From an uncultured Gemmatimonadales bacterium (GTDB lineage: Bacteria > Gemmatimonadota > Gemmatimonadetes > JACCXV01 > JAHWKZ01), in assembly GCA_947259315.1 (NCBI GenBank), contig CAMYLR010000007.1, positions 1-23,629 of the forward strand: a DNA stretch of 23,629 nt, read 5' to 3'. The notes beneath the pieces were generated by a model. The model made no database searches and had not been told where the DNA came from. It worked only from the letters and a program-made list of their open reading frames with translations. The translations under genes were made by a program, and so were the position numbers. This document shows, piece by piece, positions 1 to 23,629 of this stretch (positions are counted from its first letter, which is position 1; each line of letters opens with the position of its first letter).

Positions 1-130
<130 letters not shown>

Positions 131-13122: not shown

Positions 13123-16100
13123 GCCCCACCGGTTCTCAGCCAGCTCGCCGCTGGCTCTCCACGCTGCTCGACATCCGTTCCAACGAATGGCCAATCGTAT
13201 GGTTGCTGTTCGGATATTTCTTCCTGCTCACCTCGACACAACACCTGCTCCGTCCGGCTCGAAACGCGTTCTTCCTGAGCACCGCTGGAGCGGAGAATTT
13301 GCCGTGGGCCTACATCGCGAGTGCGATCGTCTCCGCATTCGCCACGATCGCTTACGGACGTCTCTCTGCATCGTTCTCGCGAAGCCGGCAGGTGGTCATT
13401 ACGCTGGCGATCGTCATCGCTTCGCTGGTCGCGTTCTGGATGCTGTTGAGTCGGCCCGACGGCCGCATCGCGGGCGCATTCTACGTTTGGAACAACGTGT
13501 TCTCGTTGCTGTTGATCAGCCAGTTCTTCCTGATCACCAGCGAGCTGTTCGATCCTCGCCAAGCGAAGCGCGTGTTCGGCTTCATCGGCGCCGGAGGGTT
13601 GTCTGGCGGCGTACTCGGAAGCGCCGCCGCCGGTCTCCTATCGAGGCCTCTCGGAGCCATCAACTTACTGCTCATGGCGGCGGTCTTGTTAATCGTGTGC
13701 ACGATCGTCGTGACGCGTGTCCTCAGCGTTGGAACGATTCGTGAAACACGGCAGGCGGGTAGCGAGCGTGCTTCGCGGCGGACAGAAAGCGGAGTCACCA
13801 GTGGTTTCCGCTCGATCAAACGACTCCCCCACCTCCAGCGGATCGCGGCACTCGTGTTCATCACTGTTCTGGTTTCGACTTTCTTCGACTGGATGTTCAG
13901 CTTTCTCGTCGAGTCGACGATCCCCGACCGAGAGGCTCAAGCCGAGTTCTTCGGACGCGCGTTTGCCGTGTTCAATGGCCTCGGACTCATCTTTCAGCTA
14001 GCTGCTACCAGCGCCGTCATTCGCCTGTGCGGGTTGGCGGGATCGTTGTTGATCCTGCCGATGGGCATGGGGCTGGGCGCCGCCGGACTCATCTTCTTGC
14101 CGGGGTTGATCACCGCAACCGCCGGTAAGGGCGTCGATATGACGCTCCGAAACTCGGTCGATCAATCCGCAAGAGAGCTGCTCTACCTCCCCGTGCCGAC
14201 GGCATTCAAGCAACGTGCCAAACCGTTCATCGATGTCGTACTACAGCGCAGCGCGGACGGGTTGGCTGGGGTCCTGATCCTGCTCGGAAGCGGGATGGCC
14301 GGAACCGGTGTGCGACCGCTGGCGTTCATCACTCTAGCATTGGTCGTCGCTTGGCTGGTCACGGTCGTCCGTGTCCGCGGCAGCTACCGTCACGCACTCG
14401 AGCGGTTGCTGGCGGTGCGCGACATCGACTTGGTCGAGGCGGCAGACGAGAGCCTCGACACGGAGGCGGTTCGTGAGCTCCGCGCCGCCTTGCGGCCGTC
14501 GACGAGTGCGACCGGCGTTCATTACGCGCTCGATCTGTTACGCGACTCTCCTTCCGGCAAGCTCCGCGACGACCTGCTGAGATTGCTCGACCATCGCGAC
14601 CCGACAGCCCGCGCGCGTGCGATCATCCAGCTACTGCCGGTAGCAAACGCCAGCGACTTGAGCGCCATCCGACCATTGCTCGACGACGAGGATCCAAGAG
14701 TCCGAGCTCAGGCCACGATTCTCGCAACCCGCTTCGAACCCGAGCGCCAGCTGGCACGCATGGAGGAGTGGCTCAAGTCAACGGAACCCAACGTGTTGGA
14801 GGCGGCGCTGGCGTGCTTCTTGGCCTACGGAGATCGAGCGCACAAACGGGCGGCAACAGACCGGTTGCAGCGTTTGATGGCCGAAGCCACCCCCCAAGCC
14901 GCCCCGGAGAGGGCAGCGTGTGCTCGAGCTCTAGCTCGGCTGCCTGGCGACCACCCGCTTCAGAGCGGACTCGCTGATCTCTTGGCAGACGACGACCCGG
15001 AGGTGATTCGAGCCGCGATTTCGAGCGCCGGTGCCGCTCGCCGGGTCGAGTTGCTGGAGCCTCTGGTGCCACACCTCGGGTCGGCCGAGACCCGCCGTCC
15101 CGCGACGCGGGCGATGGCCGCCGCAGGAGATCGCACGGTCCCGCACCTGTCCGCTTTTCTGCGGGATCCATCCATGCCTCGGAGGTGGTTGCCCAGCGTG
15201 TTCGTCGAGATCGCCACCCCGGCGGCCTTTTTTGCGCTCGCAGACGGTCTACCGTTCTTGACCCAAACGGACATCCAATCGGCAGCGCTAAAGGCACTCA
15301 ACAAGCTGCGCCGTCGACATCCATCGTGGGAGCTCCCAACCGTTGTCATCCGGCGCCAACTCGATTCTGAGCTGTTCGAGGCGTACGACACCGAGCGGCA
15401 GCTCGAGACGCTGTCTCAATTCGCGGACGAGCCCGACACACCGGACGCCGAGAGCGCGATCACGTATGCTTGGGCGTTGAAGCTGCGCGGTGAGCGAGCG
15501 GTCGAGCGAGCGTTCCGGCTAGAGGCGCTGCTCCACACTCCGCGCACGATCTACTTTGCGTACGCGGGGCTTACTGGCGGCAGGTCGGAGCATGCGGCAC
15601 ACGCCATCGAGCTCTTGGAGACCGCGCTCGATCGAGACGATGCGCGTGTCGTCGTGCCGCTGATCGACGCCGATTATTCTCGACCGCAGCGAGTCGCCGC
15701 GGGCCGGCAGTGGTTTCAGTTGGAGGACGTACCGCTCAAGACCGATCTCACGATCGTGCTCGAGCGTGGACAGCCGTGGCTCAAGGCCTACGCCACTCCG
15801 CTTGCGCAACGCGTCGGAGCGGCAATCGCTACAGGCAAGCACGAGGAACGAATGGCTCGGTCTACGGTCGAAAAAGCAGCGGCGCTCAGGCACGCCAAGT
15901 TGATGCGCAATCTCGACGCCGATGATTTGCTGCAGCTGGCAGCGGTCGCCGAGGAGCGTTCGTTCGACCGTGATCAACATCTATTCTACGAGGGCGAGGC
16001 CGGCGAATACCTATATGTCGTTTTGGACGGGGGGATTCGCCTAGAACGAGGCGATCTAGCCGTCCATCAAGCGGTTCCCGGTGATGTGATCGGCGAGTTT

Positions 16101-16313
16101 TCGATTCTCGACCAGCGACCGCGGTCGACCAGCGCGGTGGCTACCGCCCCAACTCGGACGCTCGCCATTCACCGCGACGACATGATCCAGGTCATGGCCG
16201 ACAACTACACTCTCGTCGAGGGGCTCTTCAGACACTTGACAGAGATCATCCGCGATATGAACGAGCTTGTGTATCCGTCGCAGGAGTCGAGGCCGAGCGA
16301 TGAAGATGTCTAG
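13119..16313 (+). CDS. NTT/MFS-like nucleotide-translocase protein fused to HEAT repeats and a cyclic-nucleotide-binding domain
   Basis: This inner-membrane protein of about 1064 aa has three parts. Residues 25-425 form a polytopic transporter resembling ATP/ADP-translocase-like (Npt1/Npt2) proteins; FLLTSTQHLLRPARNAFFLS is the typical first-helix region. Residues about 440-900 are helical with HEAT-like repeats (DHRDPTARARAIIQLL, DDEDPRVRAQATILA, DDDPEVIRAAISSAG). Residues 926-1045 are a cNMP-binding domain with FYEGEAGEYLYVVLDGGIRL and a phosphate-cassette-like GEFSILDQRPRSTS (992-1005). The substrate is unknown. No ATG, GTG or TTG precedes 13203. CTG at 13119 overlaps the upstream TGA and keeps family-like N-terminal sequence (LLDIRSNEWPIVW), so it is preferred over TTG 13203. 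AGGAG lies at 13103-13107. It converges on lpdA with an 11-nt gap. Confidence 0.88.
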   Translation: MSPTGSQPARRWLSTLLDIRSNEWPIVWLLFGYFFLLTSTQHLLRPARNAFFLSTAGAENLPWAYIASAIVSAFATIAYGRLSASFSRSRQVVITLAIVIASLVAFWMLLSRPDGRIAGAFYVWNNVFSLLLISQFFLITSELFDPRQAKRVFGFIGAGGLSGGVLGSAAAGLLSRPLGAINLLLMAAVLLIVCTIVVTRVLSVGTIRETRQAGSERASRRTESGVTSGFRSIKRLPHLQRIAALVFITVLVSTFFDWMFSFLVESTIPDREAQAEFFGRAFAVFNGLGLIFQLAATSAVIRLCGLAGSLLILPMGMGLGAAGLIFLPGLITATAGKGVDMTLRNSVDQSARELLYLPVPTAFKQRAKPFIDVVLQRSADGLAGVLILLGSGMAGTGVRPLAFITLALVVAWLVTVVRVRGSYRHALERLLAVRDIDLVEAADESLDTEAVRELRAALRPSTSATGVHYALDLLRDSPSGKLRDDLLRLLDHRDPTARARAIIQLLPVANASDLSAIRPLLDDEDPRVRAQATILATRFEPERQLARMEEWLKSTEPNVLEAALACFLAYGDRAHKRAATDRLQRLMAEATPQAAPERAACARALARLPGDHPLQSGLADLLADDDPEVIRAAISSAGAARRVELLEPLVPHLGSAETRRPATRAMAAAGDRTVPHLSAFLRDPSMPRRWLPSVFVEIATPAAFFALADGLPFLTQTDIQSAALKALNKLRRRHPSWELPTVVIRRQLDSELFEAYDTERQLETLSQFADEPDTPDAESAITYAWALKLRGERAVERAFRLEALLHTPRTIYFAYAGLTGGRSEHAAHAIELLETALDRDDARVVVPLIDADYSRPQRVAAGRQWFQLEDVPLKTDLTIVLERGQPWLKAYATPLAQRVGAAIATGKHEERMARSTVEKAAALRHAKLMRNLDADDLLQLAAVAEERSFDRDQHLFYEGEAGEYLYVVLDGGIRLERGDLAVHQAVPGDVIGEFSILDQRPRSTSAVATAPTRTLAIHRDDMIQVMADNYTLVEGLFRHLTEIIRDMNELVYPSQESRPSDEDV

Positions 16314-21175: not shown

Positions 21176-22159
21176 TCAGCCGGTCTGAGCCAGGTCTGTC
21201 AGACCGCTCGCCAACCGACTTCGTAGTAGTTGGCGGTCGGCGCGGTAGGAGCTCCTGACGAGCGGGCCGGCTTCGACGTGGGCAAACCCCATCGCCTCGC
21301 CGTGTTGGGCGAGCTCCTCGAACTCGTCGGGATGAACAAATCGGTGCACCGGCAGGTGCCATCCGGATGGGCGCAGGTACTGACCGAGCGTCAAGATATC
21401 GACGCCGCGCTCAACCAAATCACGCATCACCGTCAGGACCTCGGACGTCTCCTCTCCCAATCCGAGCATCATCCCCGTCTTCACAACCATCCACGGTGCC
21501 AGCACGCGAGCTCGCTCCAACATCTCGAGCGAGGTCTCGTACACGCCCCCGCCACGCGCCCGCCGGTAGAGCCGGGGGACGGTTTCGACATTGTGATTGA
21601 ACACCTCCGGCCGAGCGTCGAGTACCGTTTTGAGCGCCGCTGGGTTACCCTGGAAGTCTGGCACCAACGTCTCGATTGCCGTGCCTGGCGATTGTTCACG
21701 AATCCGTTCGATGCACTCAGCAAAAACAGTGGCTCCGCCGTCGGAGAGATCGTCACGGTCGACCGACGTGATCACGACGTACGACAGACCCATCCGCACG
21801 ACAGCGTCCGCCAGCCGGCTTGGTTCCTCGAGGTCGAGTTCGGTGGGCATCCCCTTGTTGACGGCGCAATAGCGGCACCCGCGGGTGCACGTGTCGCCGA
21901 GGATCATGAACGTGGCCGTCCCGTGCCCCCAACACTCGCCGATGTTCGGACAGTGCGCTTCTTCGCACACGGTGTGCAGCTCTTGCTCGCGGACGACTTT
22001 TTTGACGCCCACGTAGTGAGCGCCACCACCGGCTCGGATCTTGAGCCAATCGGGTCGCCGCTGCCGGGTTCGATCCGTATGCCCTCTCGCCGGAATCCGA
22101 GGAACTCGAGCGACTCCGGGACGAGCGCTGGCAGCAGCTCGACCATCGCGAGGTGCCAA
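21176..22159 (-). CDS. lipA: Lipoyl synthase, with abnormal N-terminus
   Basis: This radical-SAM enzyme inserts two sulfurs into octanoyl groups on E2, making the cofactor of the complex encoded downstream. Counting from TTG 22159, the auxiliary cluster Cys65/70/76 (CEEAHCPNIGEC), the SAM cluster Cys91/95/98 (CTRGCRYC) and RSSY (302-305) are all present. Family similarity begins at RRPDWLKIR (residues 34-42). The preceding 33 residues look unlike LipA and are simply the antisense of the plus-strand glycosyltransferase. No ATG exists there; the only in-frame starts are TTG 22159 and a GTG at 22010-22012 that would remove conserved residues. The natural start appears lost at a breakpoint near 22050. 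The catalytic core is intact. Confidence 0.92.
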   Translation of the reverse strand: MAPRDGRAAASARPGVARVPRIPARGHTDRTRQRRPDWLKIRAGGGAHYVGVKKVVREQELHTVCEEAHCPNIGECWGHGTATFMILGDTCTRGCRYCAVNKGMPTELDLEEPSRLADAVVRMGLSYVVITSVDRDDLSDGGATVFAECIERIREQSPGTAIETLVPDFQGNPAALKTVLDARPEVFNHNVETVPRLYRRARGGGVYETSLEMLERARVLAPWMVVKTGMMLGLGEETSEVLTVMRDLVERGVDILTLGQYLRPSGWHLPVHRFVHPDEFEELAQHGEAMGFAHVEAGPLVRSSYRADRQLLRSRLASGLTDLAQTG

Positions 22160-22160
22160 C
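22042..22160. other. Head-to-head breakpoint between lipA and a glycosyltransferase
   Basis: In the plus-strand glycosyltransferase frame, TGA at 22042-22044 is followed at once by family-like sequence (NRVAAAGFDPYALSPES). In the minus-strand frame, LipA-like sequence ends at RRPDWLKIR (about 22036-22060). Similarity to the two families therefore stops within about 15 bp of the same point, from opposite sides. There is no intergenic region, promoter or ribosome-binding site for either gene. Confidence 0.7.
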
Positions 22161-22986
22161 GGTCTATCCCCCGTTGGCGCTGGTGCTGTTCATCCTCTCT
22201 GGCTGGCTGCCGGCACCCGTGCTGGGGCTGAAGTCGTTGCTGGCGGCGCTCGATCTCGGCAGCTGCGCGATGTTGTGGCTGCTGGCCAAGCGCTGGCGAC
22301 TCCCGACTGAACGGTCGGTCTGGTTCGCTTGGAATCCACTCCTGACGGTGGAGGTCGCCGGCATGGGTCATATCGACGGTCTCGGAATCGCATTGGTGAT
22401 CTTGACGACGGTCCTGCTGGTGCAACGCCCGCAGAGATTCCTGGGCGCCGCGTTGAGCGCTACCGGTGCGGTTCTCTCCAAGCTGGTGCCGGTGTTGGCG
22501 GCGCCGACCTGGGGGCGGCTGAGCCGGCAATCGTGGCTGTTCGTCATCCTGGTGATGCTGCTTTCGACAACGGGCCTCGTGCCGATGATGGTGGGAACCG
22601 CGGGTGCGCCGCCAGGCCTTGTCAGGTACGGGGTCTCTTGGGAGTTCAACCACATCTATCCTCTCAACTACCCACAGCTTTGGGCCAAGGGAGTCCTGGC
22701 GATCGGGCTTGCGCTTGCGCTGCTGTGGGCGTGGAGGACCCCCGACACCGTAGCGTCCCTGCGGCGGGTGTTCGGATCTGCGATCCTGTTTTCGGCCACC
22801 GTCTACCCGTGGTATGCCCTGTGGGTTCTGCCGTGGGCGGCTCTGGATCGCAGCAAGCCCTGGCTGACGCTGTCGGGTCTGTTGTTCTTGTCGTATATTC
22901 CGCAGGTTCTGGATGTGCCTCTGTTTCCTTGGCTCTTCGGCGCGATATGGCTGCCGTTCGCGTTGATGGCGGCGAGGTACCGATGA
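22153..22986 (+). CDS. 5'-truncated integral-membrane glycosyltransferase (GT87/DUF2029 mannosyltransferase-like)
   Basis: This is a polytopic GT-C-type protein that would use a polyprenyl-phosphate sugar. The open frame runs from 22045 and contains FDPYALSP, then LERLRDERWQQLDHREVPTV and YPPLALVLF, the conserved first-loop region of this family. Later come VEVAGMGHIDGLGIALVIL, LSKLVPVLAAP and VSWEFNHIYPLN, with about seven hydrophobic helices. The only in-frame start is GTG 22153, which cuts off the conserved loop. About 70-90 residues expected upstream (first helices and the catalytic acidic loop) are missing, so as it stands the product is probably non-functional. Its TGA overlaps the truA ATG by 4 nt. 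Confidence 0.8.
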   Translation: MPTVYPPLALVLFILSGWLPAPVLGLKSLLAALDLGSCAMLWLLAKRWRLPTERSVWFAWNPLLTVEVAGMGHIDGLGIALVILTTVLLVQRPQRFLGAALSATGAVLSKLVPVLAAPTWGRLSRQSWLFVILVMLLSTTGLVPMMVGTAGAPPGLVRYGVSWEFNHIYPLNYPQLWAKGVLAIGLALALLWAWRTPDTVASLRRVFGSAILFSATVYPWYALWVLPWAALDRSKPWLTLSGLLFLSYIPQVLDVPLFPWLFGAIWLPFALMAARYR

Positions 22987-23629
22987 TCTATGCCTTGACC
23001 CTTTCCTATCGCGGCGACGCATATTCGGGGTGGCAACGGCAAGACAACGCCTACACTCTTCAGCAGGCGATCGAGGAAGCTCTGGCTGATCTGCTGGAGC
23101 ACGAGGTGCGCATCCACGGTGCCAGTCGAACCGATGCGGGTGTCCATGCTCGCGGTCAGGTGGCCCATTTGAGTCTCGATCACGAGTTTCCGCTCAGTGC
23201 GCTGCAGCACGGCACGAATCAACGGCTGCGAGAGGACATACGAGTGATGGCCGCGCGTCGGATGGCCGATGGCTTCCACGCCAGGAAGTGCGCCACTTCC
23301 AAGGAGTACCGCTACCGCCTGATTCGCAGTCGCGTCGTGTCACCCCTCGATACCCCCTTCGCCGTTCCGGCTCCGCCGGGATTGGAGATGAGCGCCGTAC
23401 GAGAGGCGACGGAGCGACTGGTGGGCAGACACGATTTTTCCGCCTTGGCTCTAGCCGGTGGCGGTCATGGACAGCCCTACAGAGAGATCTCGAGCGCGAA
23501 TTGGCACGAAGAGGGCGCCGCGCTGGAGCTGCGGATCGAAGGCGACGGATTCTTGCGCGGCATGGTGCGATCGATCGTTGGAACGCTGCTCGAGGTCGGA
23601 TACGGGCGCTGCACCGTGTCCAGGTTTCA
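22983..23629 (+). CDS. truA: tRNA pseudouridine synthase A (3' end beyond window)
   Basis: This enzyme makes pseudouridine at positions 38-40 of the tRNA anticodon arm. The 215 visible residues begin MIYALTLSYRGDAYSGWQRQ. The catalytic aspartate lies in ASRTDAGVHARGQVAHL. Family segments FHARKCATSKEYRYRLI, RHDFSALALAG and GDGFLRGMVRSIVGTLLEVG follow. Only some tens of residues should be missing at the right edge. The ATG overlaps the glycosyltransferase stop (ATGA, 22983-22986), showing that this side of the breakpoint is an ordinary operon. Confidence 0.95.
   Translation, partial: MIYALTLSYRGDAYSGWQRQDNAYTLQQAIEEALADLLEHEVRIHGASRTDAGVHARGQVAHLSLDHEFPLSALQHGTNQRLREDIRVMAARRMADGFHARKCATSKEYRYRLIRSRVVSPLDTPFAVPAPPGLEMSAVREATERLVGRHDFSALALAGGGHGQPYREISSANWHEEGAALELRIEGDGFLRGMVRSIVGTLLEVGYGRCTVSRF

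Follow-up and report, generated by a model that had tools for sequence, protein, structure and literature searches.

How two genes came to lose their beginnings at a single point is the question raised by the right end of the DNA analysed here, a window of 23,629 b that makes up one whole contig (C7) of a 2.40-Mb genome in 33 contigs (G000). The minus strand of the window carries lipA (lipoyl synthase), followed by the E1alpha, E1beta, E2, and E3 genes of a 2-oxoacid dehydrogenase complex, and at the right end of the contig this lipA faces a plus-strand glycosyltransferase fragment and then a truA that is cut by the contig end. A first-pass annotation of the sequence had described lipA and the GT87-like glycosyltransferase as both beheaded at one junction, and this is borne out, the N-terminal parts being lost at ~22051-22066. 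We conclude that C7 is very probably an inter-phylum chimeric contig, in which an Acidobacteriota tail was falsely joined to the lipA of the host, and that the beheading, though really present in the sequence, is almost certainly an artefact and no biological feature.

Elsewhere on the contig, reading by eye places the left contig end (window 1-95) within the first codons of a minus-strand EF-Tu-like gene, which adjoins a Thr-Gly-Tyr-Thr tRNA cluster; tuf is often duplicated, and such a duplication may lie behind the left contig break. Window 13203-16313 encodes a 1036-residue protein, listed with a TTG start, that has a TLC ATP/ADP-transporter-like and MFS-like region, HEAT repeats, and a C-terminal cyclic-nucleotide-binding domain.

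Two genes without beginnings

On the minus strand, lipA occupies 21176-22066 and lacks its start codon and roughly its first 7-8 codons. Its product carries the Pfam LIAS_N and Radical_SAM domains and is 89% identical to LipA of the same-genus sister genome G001, whose DNA matches that of the window up to 22066 and differs from 22067 on; by protein identity, DNA match, and Pfam domains, this is host sequence. Past that point the LipA-frame open reading frame gets to a TTG at 22159 only through antisense glycosyltransferase DNA, in agreement with the earlier reading that the LipA N-terminus is antisense to the glycosyltransferase.

The glycosyltransferase fragment (22051-22986, plus strand) is without its N-terminal ~105-155 residues. 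Homology begins at the R (CGG, 22051-22053) of RVAAAGFDPY; homologues extend upstream from there with WDG and those ~105-155 further residues, where the window instead has TGA GCC AAT, and the glycosyltransferase-frame TGA previously placed at 22042-22044 is real. Both this upstream TGA and the missing WDG motif follow from those bases being lipA. The missing N-terminal part was sought in the window's own genome and not found, and a search of the genome collection with the fragment alone returned no confirmed relative. We use the label "GT87-like" only, because the fragment misses the Pfam gathering cut-off for GT87 (PF09594), while among its homologues that in L076 lies just over that cut-off (25.9 vs 25 bits) and that in L074 has no match. 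At window 22645-22660 the fragment is also short of 38 in-frame residues that follow WEFN in the truA-linked Acidobacteriota homologues; either a natural deletion or a second assembly error within the tail may account for this gap.

The neighborhood of lipA in relatives and in the host genome

In G001 (locus L044) the gene order is thiO-lipB-lipA-E1alpha-E1beta, with the lipA ATG within the end of lipB, and lipB and thiO also adjoin lipA in the family members G002 and G003. When the host's own genome was searched with lipB and its flank from G001, both were located where contig C19 begins, with lipB at C19:13-747 and 80% DNA identity over C19:16-2330. C19 opens with TCATTC, which on the opposite strand reads GAATGA, i.e., the TGA stop of lipB overlapping the ATG (ATGA) that is the expected lipA start, and 20 nt separate the end of the C7-like lipA match from that TCAT in G001. 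Because of this spacing and of the lipB stop and ATG at the start of C19, C7 and C19 are expected to be neighbors with ~20 nt unassembled between them, and lipA is probably intact in the organism and split between the two contigs. A lipA that relies on a TTG within some other gene, as had been suggested, finds no support, given this lipB end and expected lipA start on C19. The lipB-lipA overlap comprises the stop and start codons (ATGA) in this genome (L051:1-6) and a few codons in the sister genome (L044:13127-13140), and such an arrangement suggests translational coupling.

These same neighborhoods bear on whether lipA and the glycosyltransferase might simply stand head to head in a normal, conserved arrangement with unusual start sites. 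Relatives sharing that arrangement had been named beforehand as what would overturn the idea of a break; we looked for them and found none: wherever a member of the genus or family gave a lipA match, lipB lay upstream of it. As no point in favor of a conserved arrangement was found, no relative examined shows one, and lipB precedes lipA in genus and family, we give this explanation next to no weight.

Origin of the tail

Beyond the junction, the contig continues as a 1.56-kb dangling end that stops inside truA (22983-23629, plus strand), whose start overlaps the glycosyltransferase stop codon (ATGA at 22983-22986). The genome holds a second truA (C4:46445-47053), which shares 87% identity with the same-genus truA but just 38% with the copy in the tail. 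Among named genomes, the tail truA finds its closest matches in Acidobacteriota, with 60-63% identity over nearly full length, and identities within that phylum reach 60-65%. In a 101-row tree the tail copy falls inside Acidobacteriota, in supported sets of 36, 37, and 38 rows; the C4 copy, which is the vertically inherited one, groups with G001, G002, and G004. The glycosyltransferase fragment is 47-53% identical to truA-linked Acidobacteriota homologues vs ≤40% for homologues in the host's class. Of the 37 closest Acidobacteriota-type truA loci, 34 have a glycosyltransferase homologue beside truA on the same strand (-12 to +23 nt); no such neighbor turned up at any host-class truA locus examined. 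The tree and the second truA lend strong support to the earlier conjecture of another organism as the source of the glycosyltransferase and truA, here Acidobacteriota.

An inversion or deletion within the host genome that fused two of its own operons, as had also been proposed, would account for head-to-head beheaded genes. However, a host truA of the expected lineage stands elsewhere (C4), the tail clusters with a different phylum, the remaining half of the glycosyltransferase is absent from the genome, and a search of four other members of the host's family yielded no glycosyltransferase homologue. Such an internal rearrangement is contradicted by phylogeny and by the second truA, and we rejected it, as scarcely credible, on the grounds of the host's own truA and the glycosyltransferase N-terminus missing from the genome.

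Two observations on the tail count against a chimera. First, 148 genomes of the matching class were searched for a donor of near-identical sequence and none emerged, the best DNA identity being ~65-68% over long stretches. Second, composition and codon usage of the tail, comparisons that the first-pass annotation had recommended, are not unusual for the host: the tetranucleotide distance is 0.270 vs 0.233 ± 0.026 for host windows, with 3 of 40 host windows as distant as the tail, and codon usage falls within the host range, so that neither discriminates. Composition tests can miss an inter-phylum misjoin where GC content happens to match.

The shared 16-nt stretch and the making of the join

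The two homologies had been reported to end at nearly the same base; both do stop at the junction, but rather than merely abutting they overlap by 16 nt (22051-22066). This stretch, CGGGTCGCCGCTGCCG, occurs once in the window, and the junction sequence, when sought elsewhere in G000, was found on C7 only. It is identical in 16 of 16 positions to the lipA of the sister genome (L044:13101-13116) and matches up to 14 of 16, in the same frame, in the homologous codons (RVAAAG; the WDGRVAAxG site) of Acidobacteriota glycosyltransferases. Short-overlap assembly errors and library chimeras typically produce joins of this kind, inside sequence that both parents possess; a break without homology is not expected to leave such sequence.

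On the chimeric reading, bases 1 to ~22066 of C7 would be host and bases ~22051-23629 would belong to an Acidobacteriota organism outside the genomes searched, whose GT87-like glycosyltransferase gene would carry the same or nearly the same 16 nt that the host lipA has near its 5' end. The assembler, or a library or PCR chimera, would have crossed between genomes inside the shared stretch, and the true continuation of the host would be C19, with the lipA start codon, then lipB and thiO. We infer that the join was made during assembly or library preparation and not in the cell, and a choice between the two would likewise be inferred. One further point is counted against a chimera: the start of C19 has no textbook k-mer overlap with C7 (longest common word 12 nt), C19 ending ~20 nt before the shared stretch.

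If Acidobacteriota DNA had truly been inserted between lipB and lipA by horizontal transfer, in the strain or part of the population, the lipA start would be removed and the cell given two truA. Such an insertion would fit the foreign tail (second truA, tree), it would also yield one contig ending at lipB and another in foreign DNA, and the 16-nt shared stretch could be microhomology used in the cell. Yet C19 has no foreign bases before lipB, so the break would have to coincide exactly with the insert edge; only one edge is present, and both edges beside host sequence are not seen; the fragment is truncated at both visible ends, with a beheaded glycosyltransferase and a truA cut by the contig end; the tail shows no mobile-element gene; and the insertion would cost a conserved lipA its start and its overlap with lipB. 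We therefore regard an insertion as quite improbable, and its fuller biological version, in which the lipB-lipA junction recently received a glycosyltransferase-truA fragment from Acidobacteriota, leaving two truA and a lipA read from a TTG in foreign DNA, as very improbable.

A chimeric join, one of the alternatives first proposed, is instead strongly supported by lipB/thiO on C19, the second truA, the truA tree, and the 16-nt overlap. The junction accordingly calls for correction of the record and not for biological interpretation: C7 should be cut at ~22051 with the tail removed or set apart, the lipA annotation should continue from C19, and the tail truA, as a second copy, should be read neither as a duplication nor as gene transfer.

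Comparison with known gene orders and chimeric contigs

From lipA downstream, the window conforms to the thiO-lipB-lipA-pdhAB order of the host family, whereas lipB and thiO of this genome lie on C19 and not beside lipA. The tail, in turn, has the order, strand, and direct abutting of the Acidobacteriota (Thermoanaerobaculia-like) glycosyltransferase-truA pair, but unlike that pair it is truncated at both ends and lacks the 38-residue segment after WEFN.

Among inter-genome chimeric contigs of the metagenome type, for which the usual proof is read evidence (the analysis of C7 covered the assembled sequence), many join close relatives, whereas the parents of C7 come from different phyla; no donor genome was found for it among 148 genomes of the matching class. 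In other respects C7 resembles them. Its origin changes abruptly at a short shared sequence near the contig end, from a lipA 89% identical within the genus to a truA inside Acidobacteriota, with 16 nt (22051-22066) common to both parents at the join, and the true neighbor ends on another contig, here with lipB/thiO at base 1 of C19.
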